DNA from: a virus
Strand: one strand, 5' to 3'
DNA length: 46,028 nucleotides
Virus record (IMG/VR): IMGVR_UViG_3300041955_000180
Span: 1 to 46,028 of that record
A model generated the notes under the pieces. The model ran no database searches, was not told the DNA's origin, and was given only the letters and a program-made list of their open reading frames with translations. The position numbers and the translations under genes are program-made. Positions 2,883 to 46,028 of this stretch are shown piece by piece. How positions within the stretch are numbered: position 1 is the first letter of the stretch; every line of letters starts with the position of its first letter.

Positions 2883-3055
2883 AGGAACGACGCACAGCCT
2901 CTATCATTTTCCGCGTAACACCGGAGGAGAAAGAGGCAATCGAAGAGGCCGCAGAGCTCGATCAGCGCTCCGTCGGGGATTTCGCACGAGTGGCGACGTT
3001 CGAGCGCATCGAAGATCAACACAGGAGCAAAGAACATGAGCCAGAAAAGAATTAA
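2879..3055 (+). CDS. Ribbon-helix-helix protein, DUF1778/TacA antitoxin-like
   Basis: This is a 58-residue protein. The segment RTASIIFRVTPEEKEAIEEA followed by AELDQRSVGDFARVATFERI matches the pattern of DUF1778/TacA-type ribbon-helix-helix antitoxins: a strand, then helices with the phrase sv.DF...A. Family members bind operator DNA as dimers and normally pair with a GNAT toxin encoded directly downstream. No such partner follows here. The only GNAT-like gene is 32 kb away in the virion module. It starts in an ATGA overlap and is more likely a small phage regulator. Confidence 0.6.
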   Translation: MKERRTASIIFRVTPEEKEAIEEAAELDQRSVGDFARVATFERIEDQHRSKEHEPEKN

Positions 3056-3287
3056 GCAGATGCGCGCACCAGCGGCGCAGGAGATGAAGCCGGTTGAGGT
3101 TCACGCGATCACGGCCGACCATGATGGCAAGACGCTCGTCGGCCTTCGCTTTAACCAGCCGTTGCAAGGCCTGATGATGACGCCAGAGTTCGCGCGCGAC
3201 GTCGCGCTCAGCCTTCTGGAGCGTGTGTCGATAGCGGAAGGCCGCACGCTGCCGGCGCCCCCGGCTGAGGCACCCTCGAATGGGTGA
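3036..3287 (+). CDS. Small hypothetical early protein (83 aa)
   Basis: The start is supported by AGGAG 8 bases upstream, inside the end of the previous gene (20-base overlap). The middle contains a beta-strand-like segment (TLVGLRFNQPLQGLMM), a helix (PEFARDVALSLLERV) and a Pro/Ala-rich tail. It overlaps the next gene by 8 bases. No family is recognised. Confidence 0.5.
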   Translation: MSQKRIKQMRAPAAQEMKPVEVHAITADHDGKTLVGLRFNQPLQGLMMTPEFARDVALSLLERVSIAEGRTLPAPPAEAPSNG

Positions 3288-4170
3288 CAAGACCGCGATC
3301 CAGTGGACGGACTCAACCTGGAATCCGGTGCGCGGGTGCTCGATGGCGAAGGGCTCGGAAGCCGGCGGCTGCCTGAACTGTTACGCGGCGCGCTATGCCG
3401 TGCGAGGCCTGCAGCGCGACTCTGCGGGCGAGCCTTTCGCGGTGATGCGCGAGTCTGGGCCGCGATGGACGGGCAAGGTCGAGCTCGTCGAGAAGATGCT
3501 TTTCCGTCCATTGAAATGGACAAAGCCGCGGCGCATCTTCGTCAATTCGCAGAGCGACCTATTCCACGAAGGTCTTGCCGATGAGGCGATTGACCGCGTG
3601 TTCGCGACGATGGCCCTATGCCCACAGCACACGTTTCAGGTGCTCACGAAAAGGCCTGAGCGGATGCTGGCCTTCATGAGCCGGGAGAACATCGTGCGCG
3701 GGCCGGGAATAAGAGGCGGCTGGAACCTTCCGAACGTGTGGCTCGGCGTCTCCGTGGAGGACGAGCCGACAGCCGACGCGCGAATCCCGCTCCTACTCAA
3801 AACGCCAGCCGCGAAGCGATTCGTAAGTTACGAGCCAGCGCTTAGGAGGATCGACTTCGAACCTTGGCTCGAGCCCTTCGATTGGGGCGACAGCGGCGAC
3901 CTGCGGCGGCTTGACTGGATCATCGTCGGCGGCGAGAGCGGGCCTGGCGCGCGGCCGTTCGACATCGCCTGGGCGCGGAACGTGATCGCGCAGTGCAAAG
4001 CCGCCGGCGTGGCGTGCTTCGTGAAGCAGCTCGGAGCCATGGCGATAGATCCGTTGTCAAAGTGTGCGATCGAGTGCGGTTGTGGCCTTCACTACGGCTT
4101 CCACGACAAAAAGGGCGGCAACTGGGCCGAATGGCCGGAAGATTTGCGCGTGCGGGAGTTTCCGGCATGA
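3280..4170 (+). CDS. Phage Gp37/Gp68 family protein (DUF5131)
   Basis: This 296-residue protein shows the classic features of the family: IQWTDSTWNPVRGC near the N-terminus, CLNCYA with Cys31 and Cys34, the phrase LTKRPERM, a central WLGVSVEDE, and the C-terminal VGGESGPGARPF and CFVKQLG blocks. The family is widespread in phages and has a TIM-barrel-like, radical-SAM-reminiscent layout with conserved cysteines (here Cys20, Cys31, Cys34), but no reaction is established. A C-terminal Cys cluster (KCAIECGCG) is additional. It overlaps the next gene by ATGA. Confidence 0.85.
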   Translation: MGDKTAIQWTDSTWNPVRGCSMAKGSEAGGCLNCYAARYAVRGLQRDSAGEPFAVMRESGPRWTGKVELVEKMLFRPLKWTKPRRIFVNSQSDLFHEGLADEAIDRVFATMALCPQHTFQVLTKRPERMLAFMSRENIVRGPGIRGGWNLPNVWLGVSVEDEPTADARIPLLLKTPAAKRFVSYEPALRRIDFEPWLEPFDWGDSGDLRRLDWIIVGGESGPGARPFDIAWARNVIAQCKAAGVACFVKQLGAMAIDPLSKCAIECGCGLHYGFHDKKGGNWAEWPEDLRVREFPA

Positions 4171-4586
4171 CTAGGAAAACGCGGAAGCCGATCACGGCCG
4201 ACGACCTGGTCAGCGAAGCGCAGCTCGAGCAAACCTGCACTGAATGGCTGCAACTTGACGGCTGGTACGCCTTAAAGACGGACCCAGTCTCCCGCCGGGA
4301 ATGGGGCAAGGGCTTCGGCGAAAAAGGCATGGCCGACCGTCAGTATCGGCGGCCGACGCCCCGTGATCCACGCCTTGCGTGGTTGCCTCCCTCGGCAGTG
4401 GCAGAGCTGCTGTGGATCGAATGGAAGAAGCTGAAGGGCAAGGCTGCCGCGCACCAACTGGAGTGGATCGAGGCGGAGAGAAGCCGCGGCTTCCTCGTCC
4501 TGCTTGCGGGCGTGGATTTCCCGGCAACGATTTCAGGCTTTCAGGCTTTCTATCGGGGCAGCAGTTTGATACGGCGGAGAATATGA
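4167..4586 (+). CDS. VRR-NUC domain nuclease (PD-(D/E)XK superfamily)
   Basis: The protein is 139 residues from the ATG at 4167. Upstream in-frame starts lie inside the DUF5131 gene and are rejected. Likely active-site residues are Glu21 in the first helix, Asp57 in GEKGMAD, and Glu85-x-Lys87 in LLWIEWKK. GKAAAHQLEWIEAERSRGF and VLL follow, the usual K..G....Q..w...l...G pattern. VRR-NUC proteins are stand-alone phage endonucleases that act on branched or structured DNA. A role in recombination or replication intermediates is inferred. Confidence 0.75.
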   Translation: MTRKTRKPITADDLVSEAQLEQTCTEWLQLDGWYALKTDPVSRREWGKGFGEKGMADRQYRRPTPRDPRLAWLPPSAVAELLWIEWKKLKGKAAAHQLEWIEAERSRGFLVLLAGVDFPATISGFQAFYRGSSLIRRRI

Positions 4587-4852
4587 GAAACGAAGACGAA
4601 ATCGAGGCGCGGTGCGAAGCGATCGCCCAGATGATCTTGGAGTCCCTCGACGCGGGACTTAAGCCCCCGCAATTTAGCTTGGGGCTGTTGGGAGCGCTCT
4701 CCTGGGTGCTTGGGGAGCCAAAGAGCGCGGATGCGCGTGCTGCGGACATTCGACGTGCGGCCACAAATACCGCGGCCTACTGTCTGGATCTCAGCAAAGC
4801 ATTGGAGGCCAGGAGGCTGAGGTTGAATGCCAGGCGGAGCTTAGCCAATTGA
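4583..4852 (+). CDS. Small helical hypothetical protein (89 aa)
   Basis: The start at 4583 is set by the ATGA overlap with the nuclease stop. A longer in-frame reading from 4379 would overlap the nuclease domain and is rejected. The protein is helical, with EDEIEARCEAIAQMILESLD near the N-terminus and a basic C-terminus (ALEARRLRLNARRSLAN). No family is recognised. It ends in a TTGA overlap with the next gene. Confidence 0.5.
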   Translation: MRNEDEIEARCEAIAQMILESLDAGLKPPQFSLGLLGALSWVLGEPKSADARAADIRRAATNTAAYCLDLSKALEARRLRLNARRSLAN

Positions 4853-5079
4853 CGCACTGCCCAACGTGCGGCCAGAGCATCGTGAAGGCCGCAAAACGTC
4901 GCTGCGCCGACTGCGGCAAGCCGATCGGTACCCGCCACAAGTATTTTTTCGGGGAAGACGGACGCGTCCGCCATCGGGTCTGCGAGAACCCAACGTCCTA
5001 CGCGCGGATGGACGGCGAGCAACCCAGTCTAATTGAGGAGGAACAGCCCGAGTGCGAAAAGTCATCGCCGAAGCCATAG
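4849..5079 (+). CDS. Small zinc-ribbon protein (TTG start)
   Basis: This is a 76-residue protein. CPTCG near residue 4 and CADCGKPIG near residue 20 form a tight zinc ribbon, followed by a FFGEDGRVRHRVC segment with a further Cys/His pair. The start codon is TTG, overlapping the upstream stop as TTGA. The acidic C-terminus overlaps the next gene. It is one of several small zinc proteins in this phage. The role is unknown. Confidence 0.55.
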   Translation: MTHCPTCGQSIVKAAKRRCADCGKPIGTRHKYFFGEDGRVRHRVCENPTSYARMDGEQPSLIEEEQPECEKSSPKP

Positions 5080-5285
5080 GCGCGGCGCCCACGCAGAGGA
5101 AGATCAAGCGGCCGGGAAGGCCGAAAGGCAGTAAGAATGGCGGCGACCCGCTGGCGCACTGCGGTGGCTTCGAACGCGTGCGGCTAACGCTCAGCCGCGA
5201 GGACGTTTTCGCGAGCTCCGGAAGCGGCGCGGAATCGCTTTCCCTCGGAAGACAGAGGACGGCGCGCAAATCGGGGCACTATTGA
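5052..5285 (+). CDS. Small basic protein with AT-hook motif
   Basis: This 77-residue protein starts with GTG, 28 bases inside the previous gene, preceded by GAGGAGGAAC. It carries KRPGRPKGSKN, a canonical AT-hook core (GRP flanked by basic residues) that binds the minor groove of AT-rich DNA, and is otherwise low in recognisable structure. It is the last gene before the AT-rich candidate origin at 5286-5551, so a role in organising or opening that region is an attractive guess. Confidence 0.5.
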   Translation: MRKVIAEAIGAAPTQRKIKRPGRPKGSKNGGDPLAHCGGFERVRLTLSREDVFASSGSGAESLSLGRQRTARKSGHY

Positions 5286-5551
5286 AATTCACAAGCTTAT
5301 GCACAGGGCTCCGAGCGCGCCCCACTTCGCAAGTCCTGGGGAATGATAAGTTTACTTATCGTTTTTCACAGCCGGTGGATAACTTCTCGATTTCGGCCTG
5401 TGGAAGGCTGTGGGAAACTCCCGGACCAACTGTTTTTGCAGGGTCTTCCACAGCGGGATGCACAGGAAACGCAACGCACAAGCCTCACGAGGTCAGCAGG
5501 ATCGATCGGTTTTCCACTTTTCCACAAAGCCTGTTATTCCTATAGGTTCAT
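5286..5551. other. Candidate replication origin: intergenic DnaA-box-like cluster
   Basis: This is a gene-free stretch of 266 bases in an otherwise packed genome. Sites close to the DnaA box TTATCCACA are TTATGCACA (5297-5305, + strand), TTATCCACC on the minus strand (5374-5382), and TTTTCCACA (5518-5526, +). Weaker 7/9 matches are at 5409-5417 (minus), 5444-5452, 5458-5464 (partial) and 5510-5518. An AT-rich block at 5341-5370 contains a perfect inverted repeat and could be an unwinding element. Overlapping open frames here (5282-5545, 5343-5585) have no SD-supported start and are shadows. Confidence 0.55.
5345..5360. promoter_or_regulatory. Perfect inverted repeat GATAAGT-TT-ACTTATC
   Basis: It has seven-base arms separated by two bases, in the AT-rich part of the candidate origin. 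It could be an operator or an initiator-binding site. It is not followed by a T-run, so it is not a terminator. Confidence 0.5.
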
Positions 5552-5857
5552 ATGTCTGTTAGATCTTCGAAGACGAAGAGAATAGCCGCGGCATTGCTTG
5601 AAAGACGTCGGCCCTTTGAATCGCGGACGCAGCGCGAAGTTCGGATCACGGTGGCCGTGCTCGCGATTGCCGGGCAACCACACGCGCCATTTCGGATCGT
5701 CTGGGTGATCCCGGGCGGTTTTCGCGTCCGAGCGTCCATGCACGAGCCCGAAGAGATCCTCAGCTGGCGGCAGGCCGAGGAGCTCGCATCCGCCCACGGA
5801 GAGCGCGCGGCCCTCCAGAGCTCGACGGAGTCAAAGAAAGGCAAATCCAAACGATGA
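5552..5857 (+). CDS. Hypothetical protein (101 aa)
   Basis: A very basic N-terminus (SVRSSKTKRIAAALLERRRPF) is followed by a strand-rich core (REVRITVAVLAIAGQPH, FRIVWVIPGGFRVRAS), a helix and a Lys/Ser-rich tail. The ATG follows TTATTCCTATAGGTTCAT, so it may be transcribed from the origin region. The gene ends in an ATGA overlap with the next one. No family is recognised. Confidence 0.5.
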   Translation: MSVRSSKTKRIAAALLERRRPFESRTQREVRITVAVLAIAGQPHAPFRIVWVIPGGFRVRASMHEPEEILSWRQAEELASAHGERAALQSSTESKKGKSKR

Positions 5858-6081
5858 ACACTTGGCCCACACAGAGCGGACTCGGGGTGTGTACCTGCGG
5901 GCATTTCAAGATGCACCACATCGAAGGCGAAGGAAGGTGTTCGAAGTGCGCAGCTCTGCGGAAGGCCGCAATCATCGCAAGAGCGACGAGCGTTCCACTT
6001 CCAGAGCTGTGCGCTCGCTTTCGAGAAGCCACTGATATTATCAGCGATCTTGACAAATCTTCAACAAGTCGCGCAGAATGA
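5854..6081 (+). CDS. Small zinc-ribbon protein
   Basis: This is a 75-residue protein. CTCGHFKMHHIEGEGRCSKC is a compact C-x-C-x(2)-H...C-x(2)-C zinc-binding stretch of a type common in phages. A helical C-terminus follows. It starts within the upstream stop (ATGA). Its last bases contain the promoter-like sequence described at 6032-6079. Confidence 0.55.
   Translation: MNTWPTQSGLGVCTCGHFKMHHIEGEGRCSKCAALRKAAIIARATSVPLPELCARFREATDIISDLDKSSTSRAE
6032..6079 (+). promoter_or_regulatory. Possible operator plus sigma-70-type promoter upstream of the packaging module
   Basis: CTGATA-T-TATCAG at 6032-6044 is a perfect inverted repeat with one central base. Five bases later comes a consensus -35 box, TTGACA at 6050-6055. 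The best -10 is weak (CAGAAT at 6074-6079, 18-base spacer). The site lies in the 3' end of the previous gene and would drive the terminase operon. The arrangement of palindrome next to -35 suggests regulated transcription. Confidence 0.35.
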
Positions 6082-6220: not shown

Positions 6221-6406
6221 ATGAGAATGGGCGCCAAGCCAGCGGACGACGAGGTTCCGGAGACTGTTGTATCCGTGCCCGAAACCGTGGTAAACAAGAC
6301 ACAGTCCGATGGCGAAGGCAAAGAAGTCAGGAAAGCAAAAACGGCAAGCGCGCGCACCCCGCGTCCGCCGAGAGCGACCAGGGCAGCCCCAGTTCAAACC
6401 GACTGA
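6221..6406 (+). CDS. Possible small protein overlapping terminase small subunit
   Basis: This 61-codon reading frame has an acidic first half (ADDEVPETVVSVPETVVNK) and a very basic, Pro-rich second half. A GGGAGG sequence lies 11 bases before the ATG. It overlaps the terminase small-subunit gene by 98 bases in another frame, which is more than usual here. It may be real or a leader peptide. The rest of 6082-6220 holds no gene I can support. Confidence 0.3.
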   Translation: MRMGAKPADDEVPETVVSVPETVVNKTQSDGEGKEVRKAKTASARTPRPPRATRAAPVQTD

Positions 6407-6761
6407 GGCTGATCGTAACACCGTGGCCAACATGGCCGCGTGCGGCATTCCTCAGGTCGAGATCGCCCGATGTCTCGGGGAAAAGGGCATCGACGCCAAG
6501 ACCCTGCGGAAGCACTTCGAGCAGGAGCTTGAGACGGCCAGCATCAAGGCCAACAGCGTCGTGGCCAACCGGCTTTACCTGGCGGCCGAGCGCGGGGAAC
6601 CGTGGGCGGTGTGTTTCTGGCTGAAGACCCGCGCGAAGTTCCGGGAGACAGATCCGCGACCAGGACAAACGGCGCCAGACGCGCCCAACATGCAGGGCGA
6701 TTTTACGTTCCACGAGCTTCTGACGACGTTCACGGAAGCAACCCGGAGGAAGGCGCCATGA
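6309..6761 (+). CDS. terS: Terminase small subunit (putative)
   Basis: The protein is 150 residues. A basic tail (residues 1-25) is followed by a helix-turn-helix (NTVANMAACGIPQVEIARCL) and a second helical segment (LRKHFEQELETASIKANSVV). The phrase LAAERGEPWAVCFWLKTRAKFRE follows, typical of phage small terminases whose C-terminal part contacts the large subunit. An in-frame stop at 6291 prevents an upstream start. Position directly before a coupled gene, a sigma-like gene and the large terminase supports the call. The small subunit recognises the packaging site and forms a ring on DNA. Confidence 0.7.
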   Translation: MAKAKKSGKQKRQARAPRVRRERPGQPQFKPTEADRNTVANMAACGIPQVEIARCLGEKGIDAKTLRKHFEQELETASIKANSVVANRLYLAAERGEPWAVCFWLKTRAKFRETDPRPGQTAPDAPNMQGDFTFHELLTTFTEATRRKAP

Positions 6762-6994: not shown

Positions 6995-7543
6995 ATGCTC
7001 TCGATTGAGGAACGCCAGCGCCTCTTCGAGGAGCACCTGGAATGGTCCAAGCTGGTCGCCCGGCGCGTCGCCTCGCAGCTCCCTCCGTCTTTCGCACCGG
7101 AGGATCTTGAACAGGAAGCGGCCCTCGAGCTGTGGCGCCAGCTCGACCGGTATGATCCGAAGCTGAACGATAACGTCCGCGGCTTCGCCTACCTGGCGGT
7201 CCGCGGTGCCTGCCTGATGAGCGTGCGGCGGAAGCATTACACCGAGGCGACCAATGAACCCCTAGGGACAAGCGTGCCGGCAACCTACAGCGATCCAGCC
7301 GACCAATACGAGAAACGGCTTGCGGATCAGCGGAACCGGAGGCGTGAGCTCGCGCAGCTGCGAGAAGTGGCGCGGCGCCTAGCCGGCTTTCCCACTCAGA
7401 TGCAGTTTTCGGCCTATGTGGTCCGGCGCGTTCATCTGGAATCGACAGCGATTCCCCAGCTGGCTGAGCTGACCGGCGTGCCGGCCGAAAAGCTACAGCG
7501 CGCGCTCGCTGCCGGCCTGCGGCTCTTGAAGAAAGGGCAATGA
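6995..7543 (+). CDS. Sigma-70 family-like protein
   Basis: This is a 182-residue protein. Residues about 18-80 match sigma region 2: VARRVASQLPPSFAPEDLEQ, then AALELWRQLDRYDP and FAYLAVRGACLMSVRRKHY. This resembles the FliA/ECF pattern that binds core RNA polymerase clamp helices and the -10 element. Residues about 138-180 resemble a region-4 helix-turn-helix (STAIPQLAELTGVPAEKLQR). Its location between the two terminase genes, with an ATGA overlap to the large subunit, is unusual. It could redirect host polymerase to phage promoters, or be a sigma-fold DNA-binding packaging factor. Confidence 0.6.
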   Translation: MLSIEERQRLFEEHLEWSKLVARRVASQLPPSFAPEDLEQEAALELWRQLDRYDPKLNDNVRGFAYLAVRGACLMSVRRKHYTEATNEPLGTSVPATYSDPADQYEKRLADQRNRRRELAQLREVARRLAGFPTQMQFSAYVVRRVHLESTAIPQLAELTGVPAEKLQRALAAGLRLLKKGQ

Positions 7544-9255
7544 GCGTCACCCTGAGCTACCGTCAGCAGCAGGACTTCCTGGACGCCGTCGCCGACGATG
7601 CGCGGTTTTGTCGGGAGGCTCTCCAGATTCGCGACGAATCCGGTCATCTGGTGAAAATGAACCCGCGGCCCGGACAGATCAAGCTGTTCAACACGATCCG
7701 GGAGCAACGGGAAAAGAACAAAGCGGTTCGCCTTGTGGTCTTGAAGACTCGGCGCTCGAACTTTACCGCGGGCGTGTGCGCCGCGATGTTCAAGAACGCG
7801 ATCACGTGGCCCGGGCGCAAGGGCCTTATCGTTGCCGACAATTACAAGCCTGCGGGACTCGAAGCGTTCGGCTATTTGCAGGCCTTCCAAGCCAACTACG
7901 TGCCGTTCACTGTGCATGGAAAGGCGCTGAAGCAGCCGGCGCTTGAACGCGACACCGACATGAACATGCGGTGGGAGTCGAAGGCCTCGCTCGAGGTCCT
8001 TTCCGCGGACAAGGGCGAGCTCCGCGGCGGCGGGCGGCAGGACGTGCTGTGCGATGAGGCGGCGTTCTGGCGCGATCCGGCGACGACGTTGACCGGGGTG
8101 CTGAATATGGTGCCCTCGGGGATGCCGGGGACCATGGTGATCGTGCAGAGCACCGCAAACGGCATCGGCGGCGAGTTCTACGATCTTTGCCAGAAAGCCA
8201 TGGATCCGTTGAATGAATCCGGCTGGCGCTTCCTGTTCTTTGGTTGGCTGGAGCACACGCCGTATCGAATCCCCGTGGACGATCCCGTCCGACTAATGGC
8301 GAGCCTCGACAAGGAAGAAAAGGTCCTGATGTCCGTGCATGGCGCGACGCTGGAGCAGCTCGCGTGGCGCCGGCTCAAGATTTCGACCGAGTGCCGTGGC
8401 CGCGTCGAGATCTTCCACCAGGAGTACCCGACGACGCCCCAGGAAGCGTTCCTGGCGTCCGGTCGCCCTCGATTCGACCATCCGGCGCTTTCGCGCATGG
8501 TGATCACGGCTGGCATCAGCGGAGAGATCGAGGTCGTCGAGGAGTTCCCGCGGCAAAAAACGCGCTTTCATCCCCGGGAGTTCGGCGCGTTGACGGTATG
8601 GAGAATGCCGGAAGCCGGGCGGCGTTACTGCGCCGGCGCCGATCCCTCGCACGGCATCGACGTTTCGCCGGACCGAAAGGGCATGGATCCGGATTATGCC
8701 GTGATGTGGGTGGAGGACTTCGACACTGGCGAGCAAGTAGCGATGCTACGCGATCGGCTGCGGCCGCACGCTTTCGCGGAGTACTCGGCGCTCTTGTGCC
8801 AATGGTACAACTGGGCCTATTTGTGCCCGGAAGCCAACGACCCGGGCTTCATCGATGCTCTCGTCCAGTTCTATCGCGTCGAGCTTCTGTTCAACCGAAG
8901 GCGGGATCCGACCGACCGCAGGAGTGCGCAGCCCGAAGAGATCGGATGGCAGACCACCGGCGAATCCCGGCTGTGGCTGGTCTCGGCCGTCGACGACGCG
9001 ATCCGCGAGGGCACCAGCATGATTCACTCAGCCGTCGCCCTCGACGAGCACTACAAGTTCGTTATCAAGCCAAACGGCAAAGCCGAAGCGCAAGCGGGCG
9101 GTCACGACGACACGGTTCTCGCGCACGCGTTTTGCAAAATGATGCGCAGGTACTACCCGCGGCACCCCGCTCCGTACGTCGACAACCGGCTGCCGAGCGG
9201 TCACCGTCCGGGGGTTGTAAGATACGGACAGCCGAGGAAAGACGACGATGACTGA
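7540..9255 (+). CDS. terL: Terminase large subunit
   Basis: This 571-residue packaging motor has an N-terminal ATPase. The Walker A-like segment is LKTRRSNFT (about 68-76), lacking the usual glycines. Walker B is VLCDE (169-173) and the coupling motif QSTANG (203-208), followed by GGEFYDL. EYPTTPQEAFLASGRPRF (295-312) is the typical linker. The C-terminal nuclease carries GADPSHGID (Asp368), CPEAND (Glu431) and GGHDD (Asp523/Asp524) as the acidic metal-binding residues. It translocates DNA into the prohead and cuts the concatemer. It is coupled to the upstream sigma-like gene. Confidence 0.95.
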   Translation: MSVTLSYRQQQDFLDAVADDARFCREALQIRDESGHLVKMNPRPGQIKLFNTIREQREKNKAVRLVVLKTRRSNFTAGVCAAMFKNAITWPGRKGLIVADNYKPAGLEAFGYLQAFQANYVPFTVHGKALKQPALERDTDMNMRWESKASLEVLSADKGELRGGGRQDVLCDEAAFWRDPATTLTGVLNMVPSGMPGTMVIVQSTANGIGGEFYDLCQKAMDPLNESGWRFLFFGWLEHTPYRIPVDDPVRLMASLDKEEKVLMSVHGATLEQLAWRRLKISTECRGRVEIFHQEYPTTPQEAFLASGRPRFDHPALSRMVITAGISGEIEVVEEFPRQKTRFHPREFGALTVWRMPEAGRRYCAGADPSHGIDVSPDRKGMDPDYAVMWVEDFDTGEQVAMLRDRLRPHAFAEYSALLCQWYNWAYLCPEANDPGFIDALVQFYRVELLFNRRRDPTDRRSAQPEEIGWQTTGESRLWLVSAVDDAIREGTSMIHSAVALDEHYKFVIKPNGKAEAQAGGHDDTVLAHAFCKMMRRYYPRHPAPYVDNRLPSGHRPGVVRYGQPRKDDDD

Positions 9256-38324: not shown

Positions 38325-41069
38325 ATGCCAGATCAATTTCCAGCTCCGCCGGCCGGCGCGACGCCCGTTCCGGCGGCCGCGGATTTCCCTCCGCCTCCGG
38401 ACGGTTCGACGCCTGTGAGCCAGGACGGGCCGTTCATGCGCTTTTTTAAGAGCGCGGCCGCAGCGCTTCCGCATCCGATTGACGCCGTTAAGGAATGGTG
38501 GAACAAACCCGCAGAGTACGGTAAAGCGGCGGACGCGATGCACGTTCTCAGCCAGCTCCACGAACGCGCCGCGGCGATGGCCGAGAACAAGGGCAAACCC
38601 GTTAATCAGTGGGCCCACCCTCCAGTCACACCCGAGGAGCAGGCCATCATCGAAAAAGGCATGACCGCCAATCTGGCAACGGCGGACGACACGACGGGGA
38701 TGATGGGCCCGGCGCTTCTCGCCGGCGGACAGGCTCAAAAGGGCGACATCGCGGGAGCGGCAGGAACGCTCGTGGGGGGATATGGGGCGCCGGCGGCCGC
38801 GGGAGCTCTCGCGGATCCCTATGTCCGTGCAACTGCCGCGGACGCCGTCAAGACCGGGGCCAGGGCAACGGCCGCGGGAGTCAAAGCCGCGGCGCCCGAC
38901 GTCGGTGTAGGCGCAGCGAAGGTCGCGGGCGGGTACGCGGTCGCGCGGATTCCCGTTCCCGGAGTCAATCCCCTGTTCGAGGCCGTCGCTGGAGGCCCGA
39001 TCGTCGCCGGCGGCGTCAAGCAGATGGGTAGAGGCCTCGTCAAGGGCTTCGGCGCTTTGAAACAGTCGCTGGCCGACACCAGGGCGGCGACTTCGACCAG
39101 AATGGCCGGACCTGTGGCCGCGATGCCAGAAGCGGCGACGGCCGCGACCACAGCAGCTCAACCCGAGCCCATCGAGCCGACCGGTCAGATCCAGAAGCCC
39201 TCGAGCGCTGTTCCGGAGCCGCCGGCCGCAGGACCTGTCTCGGCGATGCCTGCGGCGTTCCCGCCTCCGCCTAAAGGCGCGGTTCCCGTGCCAGAAACGG
39301 CGGCCACGCCCTCGCCGGTACTTCCGACATCTGAAGGTAGCATCGCGCTCCGGGAAGGGCCTAGCGTCGCTCCCAGCGCCGACACAGAGACCGGAAATGT
39401 AACCCCGGCGGCAAATCTTAACCCCTCGGTTAAAATTCAACCGAGCGCGTCAGCTCCCGAGGCTGTCCCGGCGGAGCATCCGGCGGCCGAATATTTCCGG
39501 CGCGGCCTGCCCGCTCCGATGGCAGCCTACGTCAAAGATCAGACCGTCGCCGGCTACCTCAAGGATTTGGGAATTAATGACGATATTTGGGAAAAAGTCT
39601 CGGACGCGCAGCGCGATAAGTGGGTTCGCGATGCGACGAAGAAGCCGCGGGCCGGCCAGAATCCCGAACGAATCGGCGACATTTCCAAGATGCTGCGCGC
39701 GGACCCTCCGGAGCCAGGGACGCTGACGCCAGAGACCGAGGCGGAAATTTTACGCTTTCACCAGAACCAGACCGGCCTGGGGTTTGAAGCTCCGAAAAAT
39801 AGTGCTACACTACCGTCGGATGGAGCTGCGCAACCCAGCCAAGGAACGCAAGGACCGGGAGCAGGCGGACAAGGTCCGCCGGTTCAAGGGGCGCCTGGCC
39901 CAGGCGGCGGAGCAGGCCCGGCTTCGACTTCTGTCGTCATCCCAGGCGGCTCACCCGACATCCCCGTCCGCTACGCCGTCCGTGAACTGAGCGACATCCA
40001 AACGTCCCACAATGGGCTCACGTTTCAGCCCAACGCAAAGTATAGTCTCGTAAACGACAGAGACTACACGGTCCAGGACAACCAGGCCAAAGTCATCAAT
40101 GGCGCCCAGAACTTCAATCCGCGCCTGCACATCACCGACAATCCCGACGCCACGAATGGTCCGCCGATTGTCGATTCCCAAGGAAACGCCATAGGCGGCA
40201 ACGGCCGCGGGATGATGTTGCAGCGCGTTTATTCGTCGAACCCGAAGGCGGCCGCGGCTTATCGGGCGATGCTCGAAGAGAAGGCCCCTCAATTCGGAAT
40301 CGACCCGGCTGCGGTCAAAGCCATGAAGCAGCCCGTCCTGGTACGGGAGGTCGCGGACGCGGATCTTGCCAACTCCCAGAACGCGATCACGGACCTGAAC
40401 AAGACCGGGACGGCAGCGCTTCGGCCGGTGGAGCGAGCGATCGCGGACTCGAGGAGGGTCTCGCAGGGAACGCTCGATCACGTCGCGGCGCAGCTCGACG
40501 CCATCGGTCCGAATGCGACGCTAAACCAGGCGCTTAGCGGGAAAACGGGCGCTGGAATCCTCGGCAAGCTGATCGACGACGGCGTCATCACGCCACAGGA
40601 GCGCGCGGGCCTCGCGTCGGGCGATAACCTCACGGCCGCGGGTAAGAATCGGATCTCGCAGCTGCTCCTCGGCCGATTCTTCGCCGATCCCGCGCAGCTC
40701 GAGCGGATTCCGGCACCGATCGTCGGCAAGCTGGAACGGATCGCCGCGCCCCTTGCGCGGGTAGAAAGCTCGGCCGACTGGTCCCTCACGCCCAAGATCC
40801 AAGGCGCCCTTAGTCTGATCGAAGAGGCTGCGGTCCGCGGGAGCAGGAATCTTACGGACGTCGTCAAGCAAAGCGGCCTCTTTGGCGAGCAGAAATACAC
40901 GCCCGAGATTGTCGAGTTCGCAAAAAAACTCCAGAGAATGCCGGCGGCTAAGCTCCGCGCGGCTGTCACGCAATACGCGCAGGACGCGCGGTTCGCAAGC
41001 GCTGGGGAGGGCCTTTTCGGAGGAGGGCCCACGCCGGCCGATTCGTTCAATCAGGCATTCGGCAAATGA
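38325..41069 (+). CDS. Large putative ejection protein with ParB-superfamily (DdrB-like) domain (914 aa)
   Basis: It starts at the base after the previous stop. Residues 1-290 contain Pro-rich linkers and Ala/Gly-rich amphipathic stretches (GMMGPALLAGGQAQKGDIAG). Residues about 300-400 are a disordered Pro/Ala linker. After a helical block and another Gly/Pro linker, residues about 545-680 match a ParB/DdrB-like domain: DIPVRYAVRELSDIQTSHNG, GGNGRG (Asn626-Gly-Arg628) and QPVLVREV near 669. These occur in phage and plasmid proteins. The helical C-terminus has no helix-turn-helix typical of ParB. A parS-like site follows the stop codon. Confidence 0.6.
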   Translation: MPDQFPAPPAGATPVPAAADFPPPPDGSTPVSQDGPFMRFFKSAAAALPHPIDAVKEWWNKPAEYGKAADAMHVLSQLHERAAAMAENKGKPVNQWAHPPVTPEEQAIIEKGMTANLATADDTTGMMGPALLAGGQAQKGDIAGAAGTLVGGYGAPAAAGALADPYVRATAADAVKTGARATAAGVKAAAPDVGVGAAKVAGGYAVARIPVPGVNPLFEAVAGGPIVAGGVKQMGRGLVKGFGALKQSLADTRAATSTRMAGPVAAMPEAATAATTAAQPEPIEPTGQIQKPSSAVPEPPAAGPVSAMPAAFPPPPKGAVPVPETAATPSPVLPTSEGSIALREGPSVAPSADTETGNVTPAANLNPSVKIQPSASAPEAVPAEHPAAEYFRRGLPAPMAAYVKDQTVAGYLKDLGINDDIWEKVSDAQRDKWVRDATKKPRAGQNPERIGDISKMLRADPPEPGTLTPETEAEILRFHQNQTGLGFEAPKNSATLPSDGAAQPSQGTQGPGAGGQGPPVQGAPGPGGGAGPASTSVVIPGGSPDIPVRYAVRELSDIQTSHNGLTFQPNAKYSLVNDRDYTVQDNQAKVINGAQNFNPRLHITDNPDATNGPPIVDSQGNAIGGNGRGMMLQRVYSSNPKAAAAYRAMLEEKAPQFGIDPAAVKAMKQPVLVREVADADLANSQNAITDLNKTGTAALRPVERAIADSRRVSQGTLDHVAAQLDAIGPNATLNQALSGKTGAGILGKLIDDGVITPQERAGLASGDNLTAAGKNRISQLLLGRFFADPAQLERIPAPIVGKLERIAAPLARVESSADWSLTPKIQGALSLIEEAAVRGSRNLTDVVKQSGLFGEQKYTPEIVEFAKKLQRMPAAKLRAAVTQYAQDARFASAGEGLFGGGPTPADSFNQAFGK

Positions 41070-41075
41070 TTCTTT

Positions 41076-41091
41076 CGTTTCACGTGAAACA
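41076..41091. promoter_or_regulatory. parS: parS-like partition site
   Basis: CGTTTCACGTGAAACA matches the bacterial chromosomal parS consensus TGTTTCACGTGAAACA at 15 of 16 positions. The inner 14 bases (41077-41090) are a perfect palindrome. ParB binds such sites through a helix-turn-helix and spreads with CTP. The stem is not followed by a T-run, and its sequence is exactly that of the widely conserved centromere-like element, so a terminator is unlikely. Confidence 0.75.
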
Positions 41092-43522: not shown

Positions 43523-43999
43523 ATGCTCTCAAATTCAGTGACAACCGAGTGCGACATCTGCGGGCGCGATCCTTATCCGCTCAGTTATCCGAAACCGCCC
43601 CTGCATAAAGTCAGGGCCGGCCTTCTCGCCTGTTCCGTCTGCAAGTGCATTCTCGAACAGCTCCAGGCAGCCGTCGGTCCCGTCGCCAGAATGCACGCCG
43701 GCGCCGAGGTTTTTAACTCGTTCAACCACGACCGCGCCGACGCGATCCTCCGCGAGGCCAACTTCCACGACAGCGAGATCGACGACGCTTATGCGCAGGC
43801 GAAGCGCATCCAGACTGCCGCCTCTGGCTTCTGGAACAGCGCGAGTCTTCCCGGCGTCGTGCGTGACAACCTGGAACGCGCTGGCCACACTCCGGAAGAG
43901 GTTTCCTCGGCATTTGAGCTGTACTCGCGGGACCGCGCGAAGCTCTCGGCGCGGATCGCGACTTACGGCGCGCCGGAATACGGGACGGTGCGGTCATGA
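43523..43999 (+). CDS. Zinc-ribbon protein with long helical tail (158 aa)
   Basis: CDICGRDPYPL and CSVCKC in the first 45 residues form a zinc ribbon. The remaining region is helical (FNHDRADAILREANFHDSEI, DDAYAQAKRIQTAASGFW) with a HTPEEVSSAFELYSRDRAK segment. ATG 43523 has AAAGGA 12 bases upstream; the in-frame extension to 43364 overlaps the previous gene and is rejected. Function unknown. Confidence 0.5.
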   Translation: MLSNSVTTECDICGRDPYPLSYPKPPLHKVRAGLLACSVCKCILEQLQAAVGPVARMHAGAEVFNSFNHDRADAILREANFHDSEIDDAYAQAKRIQTAASGFWNSASLPGVVRDNLERAGHTPEEVSSAFELYSRDRAKLSARIATYGAPEYGTVRS

Positions 44000-44561: not shown

Positions 44562-45260
44562 ATGGCACTCACGAGGCGATCAGAGAATCAAGCTGTCTTC
44601 CTCGAAGCAAAGCACTATTGCCTGTGGCGCGCGCTGAAAACGCAGGTGCCGGGCTGCGAAGTGGTCGAGGCCAACAATCCGCGGACTGGCGCGACCGTCA
44701 AGAAGTTTGGCTATCGGTACGACACGGTTGCGGGCATCGCGACGAAGCTCCTGAAGTACGACACCGAGCGGAAATATTCGCAGCGCTACTTCGGTTTCAA
44801 GCTACATCTGGTAGACGGTGCCGAGACCTACGTGATCGACATGCCCTACCACAGCCAACTCTTGCGCCGTTTCCTGCGCGTGGCCCGGGCCGTGGACTGG
44901 TCGAAGCCGCTCTCGATTACGGTTTTCAAGGGTAAGAAAAACGCTGGCGAAGTCGAGCCTACGGGTGTCTGGTTTCAGCAGCAAGGCCAAACGGTCAAGC
45001 CATATTACACGCGCGAACAGCCGCACGGAATGCCCGAGGCTACGCACGATTCAATTGAGGATCAGTGGGATTTCAAGGCCCAGCACCGCTGGTTGGTTGA
45101 GCGGCTCATCACGGAGACGATACCAGACATAGAGACGGCTGCGCGGAAAGTTGCCCCTCCGATTGAGCCGCATACCGAAGAGGAACGGGGGCAGGAACCA
45201 CCCGAGGACGAAGGTCCGCCAAACACGTGGGAAGCCGACAATTCGGACGTGCCCTTCTGA
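44562..45260 (+). CDS. Possible single-stranded DNA-binding protein (232 aa)
   Basis: The core contains strands and aromatic residues (GYRYDTVAGIATKLLKYDTE, RYFGFKLHLVDGAETYVIDM, SITVFKGKKNAGEVEPTGVW), consistent with an OB-like fold, though the match is not firm. The tail is acidic and Pro-rich (EEERGQEPPEDEGPPNTWE) and ends DNSDVPF, the same kind of acidic tip (D-D-x-(I/V)-P-F) by which bacterial SSB recruits replication and repair proteins. It sits among early genes with an HNH-like nuclease downstream (TGATG overlap). An SSB is inferred mainly from the tip. Confidence 0.5.
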   Translation: MALTRRSENQAVFLEAKHYCLWRALKTQVPGCEVVEANNPRTGATVKKFGYRYDTVAGIATKLLKYDTERKYSQRYFGFKLHLVDGAETYVIDMPYHSQLLRRFLRVARAVDWSKPLSITVFKGKKNAGEVEPTGVWFQQQGQTVKPYYTREQPHGMPEATHDSIEDQWDFKAQHRWLVERLITETIPDIETAARKVAPPIEPHTEEERGQEPPEDEGPPNTWEADNSDVPF

Positions 45261-45604: not shown

Positions 45605-46028
45605 ATTGTCTTAAAATCGACAAAAGCAAGATCGACGGCCAAGGCTTCTATGTAGGGATCGAGTTCGACGCTGCAGCTGAATTTGATGGCAGCGTGGAGA
45701 TACTGGAAGGTCTCGGGACCCTCCGCTTCAAGGGATCGTTGCGCGCCACGGGCCAAATAGTCGCCAAAGCTGGCTCGGGGATCGAAGCTGGCTTGGGGAT
45801 CGAAGCTGGCTTGGGGATCGAAGCTGGCGAGGGGATCAAAGCTGGCTCGGGGATCGAAGCTGGCTTGGGGATCAAAGCTGGCGAGGGGATCAAAGCTGGC
45901 TCGGGGATCAAAGCTGGCCGGGGGATCGAAGCTGGCTGGGGGATCGAAGCTGGCTGGGGGATCGAAGCTGGCTCGGGGATCGAAGCTGGCTGGGGGATCG
46001 CCTGCAAAAAGGCCATCAGCGTGAAATT
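45601..46028 (+). CDS. Hexapeptide-repeat protein, N-terminal part (continues at 140-263)
   Basis: GTG 45601 overlaps the nuclease stop (GTGA). Residues 1-55 form a strand-rich head (NCLKIDKSKIDGQGFYVGIE, SVEILEGLGTLRFKGS). From 45769 on there are 13 units of A-G-x-G-I-E/K, with x = S, L, L, E, S, L, E, S, R, W, W, S, W. The reading frame runs through the contig end, so the gene is complete only on the circular map. Repeats of period six fit a parallel beta-helix. The true unit number is uncertain because the array is at the assembly break. Confidence 0.8.
   Translation, partial: MNCLKIDKSKIDGQGFYVGIEFDAAAEFDGSVEILEGLGTLRFKGSLRATGQIVAKAGSGIEAGLGIEAGLGIEAGEGIKAGSGIEAGLGIKAGEGIKAGSGIKAGRGIEAGWGIEAGWGIEAGSGIEAGWGIACKKAISVK
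45769..46002 (+). repeat. 18-bp tandem coding repeats, 13 units
   Basis: There are thirteen consecutive in-frame 18-bp units (234 bases). Variation is almost confined to the codon for x and the E/K codon, giving a highly constrained, recombination-prone array at the contig end. Confidence 0.9.
45908..46028 (+). repeat. Terminal redundancy, right copy (identical to 19-139)
   Basis: There is an exact 121-base match to bases 19-139. One more unit upstream matches with two differences (see the left copy). This supports circular closure of the contig. Confidence 0.9.

Follow-up and report, generated by a model that had tools for sequence, protein, structure and literature searches.

Introduction

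It is commonly assumed that a tailed phage supplies an initiator or helicase loader of its own. In bacteria, the general DnaA box is TTWTNCACA and the box of cyanobacterial oriCs is TTTTCCACA (PMC4674748), and iteron replicons commonly use a Rep protein together with DnaA (PMC4980987). The origins of mycobacterial extrachromosomal prophages are RepA or RNA-based, the non-RepA type using a non-coding RNA and adjoining parABS, and DnaA is unmentioned in the main text of the paper that describes them (PMC7157519). In Pseudomonas phage PseuGes_254, which has DNA polymerase A and primase genes of its own, the origin is a prediction, placed in AT-rich DNA with predicted DnaA boxes (PMC11512268).

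The locus considered here is a gap of 266 bp (positions 5286 to 5551) in the 46,028-base genome of a soil-type phage (IMG/VR record IMGVR_UViG_3300041955_000180), the whole of which is referred to as the window. The gap resembles a bacterial oriC in that several TTWTNCACA-class boxes, the cyanobacterial box TTTTCCACA among them (PMC4674748), are found within about 250 bp with low-stability DNA at one end. Unlike oriC, it is part of a phage genome, has recombination and terminase genes, not dnaA/dnaN, as neighbors, has no significant DnaA-trio, and lies away from the GC-skew minimum. Lambda O-type and iteron origins, in which an initiator gene carries internal repeats and DnaA boxes, have their likeness in the same slot of three other phages (G005, G015 and L115), with box-like sites in the slots of G005 and G015. 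In contrast, no HTH_36 match was obtained in the window or in the phages G003, G023 and L125, and the gap of the window has no iterons. The presence or absence of an initiator gene among related phages is shared with the mycobacterial prophages, and PseuGes_254 likewise combines predicted DnaA boxes with AT-rich DNA. What appears to be new is not the box cluster itself, but a cluster that stands as the only visible phage initiation element in a slot where initiators are exchanged; such use was not described in the literature searched, a search that left many journals outside.

Results

The window and the gap

The first and last bases of the record, about 139 at each end, are nearly identical. 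Because these ends overlap in a repeat with one frame through the junction, the genome was taken to be circular or permuted. The repeat is an 18-bp tandem repeat (45605-46028 plus 1-258) encoding six-residue AGSGIE repeats in an ORF that spans the record junction, and repeat genes resembling this ORF occur in G015 (oriented 38646-39791) and at the end of L125. Another contig is 99.97% identical to the window across 18.8 kb, the region of the gap included, and therefore adds no independent evidence. No close isolate phage or plasmid was found for the window, and a host search of 84,980 species genomes yielded no related prophage nearer than 31% in TerL.

The gap separates ORF 5052-5285 from ORF 5552-5857 and has a GC content of 51%, compared to about 62% for the genome. 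Two ORFs (5282-5545 and 5343-5585) are open through it. Coding potential was nevertheless rejected and the gap was treated as non-coding, because the lengths of most indels relative to the corresponding gap of G003 are not divisible by three, and stops occur in every forward frame of G003. A search of Rfam gave no match. The earlier note placed a gene for an AT-hook protein directly before the gap; ORF 5052-5285 (+) does contain the AT-hook-like motif KRPGRPKGSKN, on which the name is based, while it has no match in Pfam or PHROG and no homologue in the relatives. The small ORF after the gap (5552-5857, +) is weakly similar to the ORF that follows the gap of G003 (BLASTP, E=2e-4).

The slot that contains the gap is marked upstream by a VRR-NUC-like gene (4167-4586, +; endonuclease or Holliday resolvase-like), which matches PHROG 93 and 5702 and was named by sequence reading with no Pfam match; VRR-NUC homologues adjoin the slot in other phages too. 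Its downstream border is the terminase small subunit gene (6309-6761, +; PHROG 309, 5e-6), and the terminase large subunit gene, identified by tblastn to annotated TerL, is found at 7540-9255 (+). A sigma-70 region 2 protein is encoded between the two terminase genes (6995-7543), a place that is kept in L003, G005 and G015.

DnaA boxes in the gap

TTWTNCACA, from which the host's own box may differ, has three exact matches in the 46-kb window, and all are in the gap: the predicted DnaA boxes TTATGCACA (5297-5305, +), TTTTTCACA (5362-5370, +) and TTTTCCACA (5518-5526, +). When TTATCCACA was used as reference, the sites at 5297 and 5518 and the predicted box TTATCCACC (5374-5382, -) had one mismatch, so that three of the six one-mismatch sites of the window lie within the gap. 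Two mismatches were found at 5362, in the weak boxes TTTCCCACA (5409-5417, -) and TCTTCCACA (5444-5452, +), and in the box TTTTCCACT (5510-5518, +), which overlaps the box at 5518 by one base. A further motif match, the weak box CCTTCCACA (5399-5407, -), has the core TTCCACA. The GGATAAC core of the box at 5374, TCCACAGC of the box at 5444 and GTTTTCCAC of the box at 5510 are kept in G003.

The density of sites was compared with that in the best 266 bp of each of 150 first-order Markov genomes of the same dinucleotide make-up. The best segments contained approximately one site with one mismatch and 2.7 sites with two, compared to 3 and 7 in the gap, respectively, and none of the 150 genomes reached 3 sites (at most one mismatch) or 7 sites (at most two mismatches). 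In a permuted-word control, 0.17% of the words made by reordering the same letters matched the density of the gap, and the top family of a de novo 8-mer search of the gap included TTTTCCAC. These findings show that DnaA-box-like sites are clustered above chance, as in an oriC-type origin, and bear out the cluster of three near-consensus and several weaker sites to which the earlier note had drawn attention.

Replication genes, duplex stability and GC skew

The window yielded neither an initiator nor a helicase or polymerase when its main ORFs were searched against Pfam and PHROG and all six frames were searched for DnaB_C, DNA_pol_A and HTH_36, in agreement with what had been concluded from reading the sequence. 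The initiator gene that characterizes lambda O-type and iteron origins was also missing, with neither HTH_36 nor any initiator family in the window, and the gap has no iterons (at least three long direct repeats), only pairs of 8-10 nt being found in the gap region. As an initiator, a helicase and a polymerase all went undetected, we infer that the phage must use the host replisome. The genes that are present include nuclease-like genes, a Gp157/Mu Gam-like gene in the early module (260-1081, +; weak Pfam and PHROG matches, homologues in G015 and G017), and an SSB-like gene (44562-45260, +), which was named from its C-terminal motif with the acidic tip DNSDVPF, has no Pfam or PHROG match and has a 59% homologue in G017.

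Nearest-neighbor energies placed the least stable 100-bp window of the genome at 5484-5583, on the 3' side of the last boxes, where it is a candidate unwinding element. The least stable 250-bp window starts at 5335 and overlaps the 3' side of the cluster. Low-stability DNA, as expected of an unwinding element, is thus present beside the boxes, and in G003 and G023 top-ranked unstable segments are also located beside the last box. A DnaA-trio after the last box was convincing by eye, but did not reach statistical significance in the four loci (P 0.14-0.82).

A GC-skew minimum at the origin is usual for chromosomes but not strictly defining for phages, and in small phages with long co-directed modules the skew need not mark the origin. 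The minimum had been expected near 5.4 kb, but the detrended minimum of the window was found at 43,893, formally the outcome that the earlier note had named as refuting its proposal. In G003 the minimum fell at 40.7 kb, and in G023 it preceded the cluster by 5 kb. With minima 5-12 kb upstream of the cluster in these three circular phages, GC skew neither locates nor supports the gap.

A homologous gap in the same packaging lineage

Relatives with a TerL identity of 37-56% were found by TerL, portal and capsid scans. In G003, a circular contig of L008 (47.9 kb, 127-bp end repeat, TerL 54% identical to that of the window), a gap of 261 bp follows a VRR-NUC homologue and precedes the small ORF that resembles 5552-5857. 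This slot is the densest box-like window of the 47.9 kb (five sites with at most two mismatches, one of which overlaps a parS-like palindrome; genome-wide P 0.007), and exact TTWTNCACA does not occur in G003. In an unbiased 8-mer search of both gaps, TTTTCCAC was at the top count, with six sites each. The gaps align colinearly over approximately 160 window bases (5377-5537) with a score of 47, compared to at most 36 for 722 other G003 windows and at most 39 for shuffles. Identity was 76% at box sites and 64% in the remaining gap, a trend (P=0.09) that was not significant and was not taken as support. Conservation of the cluster in related contigs, which had been proposed as a check, was therefore found in G003, where the gap is alignable, in the same place, and holds the densest cluster of that genome.

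Initiator-like genes in the same slot

The gene order in G005 (1478-like, 2100-like, DUF5131, record end, VRR-NUC, a wHTH gene at 2900-3535, TerS, sigma-like, TerL) is that of the window with the wHTH gene replacing the gap. This gene matches PHROG families of replication initiation, O-like and DnaD-like proteins, and contains ATGTCGGGT three times in tandem and four box-like sites. The slot of G015 and G016 is occupied by a similar wHTH initiator-like gene, in which are found repeats of the ACTTCCGGGCTGA type, TTTTCCACA, and the 30-mer that melts most easily in the whole genome. Box-like sites are thus present in the slot genes of both G005 and G015.

In the more distant L115, the slot contains a wHTH initiator-like ORF (2913-4079) with six 21-nt iteron-like repeats, AAAGGGTGATATC, and a ParB-like ORF (4318-6072) follows it.

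Clusters in other packaging lineages

When the VRR-NUC family, the nuclease of the early module, was used as query, phages were found that share it but whose terminases are not recognizably related to that of the window. In L121 (contig G023, circular, 39.4 kb, 117-bp end repeat), all four copies of TTTTCCACA in the genome are within 166 bp; they precede TerS and follow the VRR-NUC start by 0.8-0.9 kb. In L125 (contig G027), the slot contains four copies of TTTTCCACA and one of TTTTGCACA within about 220 bp. Approximately 0.1 exact TTTTCCACA per record is expected by chance. All six pairwise alignments among the gaps of the window, G003, G023 and L125 scored above their shuffles; the weakest pair, G003 and L125, scored 41 compared to a shuffle maximum of 36, and reached the same 41 in the reverse-complement orientation.

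Among 22 slot-bearing records, four carry a bare cluster, and none of these matched HTH_36, compared to 12 of the remaining 18 (Fisher P=0.029); in L125, a record of 4.1 kb, the absence covers the slot only. The positions derived for the HTH_36 match in G031, G032, G033 and G034 place it about 0.5-0.7 kb downstream from where VRR-NUC starts. About a third of the 22 records have neither cluster nor HTH_36, so that the slot rule is not complete. A TTTTCCAC cluster in G017 was rejected as an origin and left out of the count; it consists mostly of the two halves of a parS palindrome.

Discussion

The best-supported reading, which we consider probable, is that the gap is a phage replication origin that works by direct recruitment of host DnaA. 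It is favored by the clusters that other phages have in this slot and by the initiator genes that replace the cluster in relatives. The proposal of such an origin in the earlier note gains from both, but fails its GC-skew test and leaned on an inverted repeat, described below, that is not conserved in G003. Other points that weigh against the reading are boxes only slightly more conserved than the remaining gap, the want of a significant DnaA-trio, the lack of exact TTWTNCACA in G003, where one of five sites overlaps a parS-like palindrome, and the slot-bearing records with neither cluster nor HTH_36. Host DnaA would bind the TTWTNCACA and TTTTCCAC boxes and melt the AT-rich DNA on the 3' side of the cluster, after which it would load the host helicase and replisome, making an initiator, helicase and polymerase of its own unnecessary for the phage. 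The origin slot would be bordered by the VRR-NUC-like gene on one side and the terminase genes on the other; in it, sister phages have an initiator gene with embedded repeats. The gap is thus best read as a phage origin that recruits DnaA and occupies a slot open to exchange, and the comparison of these sequences suggests that some phages start DNA copying by borrowing the initiator protein of the host.

Alternatively, the origin may depend on an unrecognized phage initiator, for example one of the small early proteins encoded by 1478-2098, 4849-5079 and the AT-hook ORF; host DnaA would then have an auxiliary role, as it does in iteron plasmids and P1. No family was matched by several of the early ORFs, and a Rep protein acting with DnaA is common in iteron replicons (PMC4980987); however, the gap lacks iterons, and the AT-hook ORF and its small neighbors have no homologues in relatives, which leaves this explanation rather unlikely. 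The protein encoded at 1478-2098 was rejected as the hidden initiator: its homologue in G005 occurs beside that phage's own initiator-like gene, indicating that it is not a replacement. It is also unlikely that the gap is a regulatory region, in which a late-operon promoter and repeated operators are bound by a host or phage factor with a DnaA-box-like site. Its position where early and late genes meet, ahead of 5552 and the terminase genes, its inverted repeat at 5345-5360, and the sigma-70 region 2 protein encoded between the terminase genes would all suit regulation. Nevertheless, a search for a sigma-70-like promoter found none, the box-like sites of G005 and G015 are inside initiator-like coding sequence beside repeats, and perfect TTTTCCACA arrays occur in two other phages.

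DnaA is also a transcription regulator, and the same box evidence would fit a cluster that perturbs host replication by titrating DnaA, or that times phage genes, and is not an origin. Since this leaves unexplained both the initiator genes in the same slot of relatives and the low duplex stability, it is judged quite improbable. The gap is about 0.76 kb upstream of the TerS gene and might be a packaging (cos/pac) site, but the cluster recurs beside the unrelated terminases of L121 and L125, contrary to expectation for a site specific to one terminase, and this reading has very little likelihood.

If the gap is an origin that recruits host DnaA, a slot switching between an initiator gene and a bare cluster would show passage between self-directed and host-directed replication, and replication of the phage would be tied to the host cell cycle. 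The 266 bp are a small testable sequence, and the related phages with perfect TTTTCCACA arrays offer a hint of what the host's DnaA box is, which may aid host assignment.

Inverted repeat and parS-like sites

The perfect 16-base inverted repeat reported in the gap is present at 5345-5360, though in the form GATAAGT-TT-ACTTATC, with arms of 7 bp and a spacer of 2 bp. It is a possible operator, and was discarded as a conserved element because it has no counterpart in the gap of G003, the one homologous gap checked.

A parS-like palindrome, CGTTTCACGTGAAACA, with the exact core GTTTCACGTGAAAC, is located at 41076-41091 of the window, right after the stop of ORF 38325-41069; neither ParB, sought in all six frames, nor ParA gave a match in the window. 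G017 contains an exact TGTTCCACGTGGAACA (oriented 3982), and G023 contains CGTTCCACGTGGAACG with an exact core (oriented 2364), both with no ParB match. Use of the host ParB by these three phages is possible. It is conceivable, though doubtful, that this soil-type lineage is mini-chromosome-like, combining an initiator-free DnaA origin with parS sites on which the host ParB could act in the window, G023 and G017, and with slot origins that exchange DnaA-box and initiator forms. G003 has a ParB-like gene (raw 260-778, minus) with no ParA match, and a one-mismatch parS-like site (oriented 4900) within its box-cluster gap. ORF 38325-41069, in the late region of the window, encodes a 914-aa protein with a ddrB-like domain of the ParB superfamily at residues 545-676 (Pfam PF18763, 1e-21).
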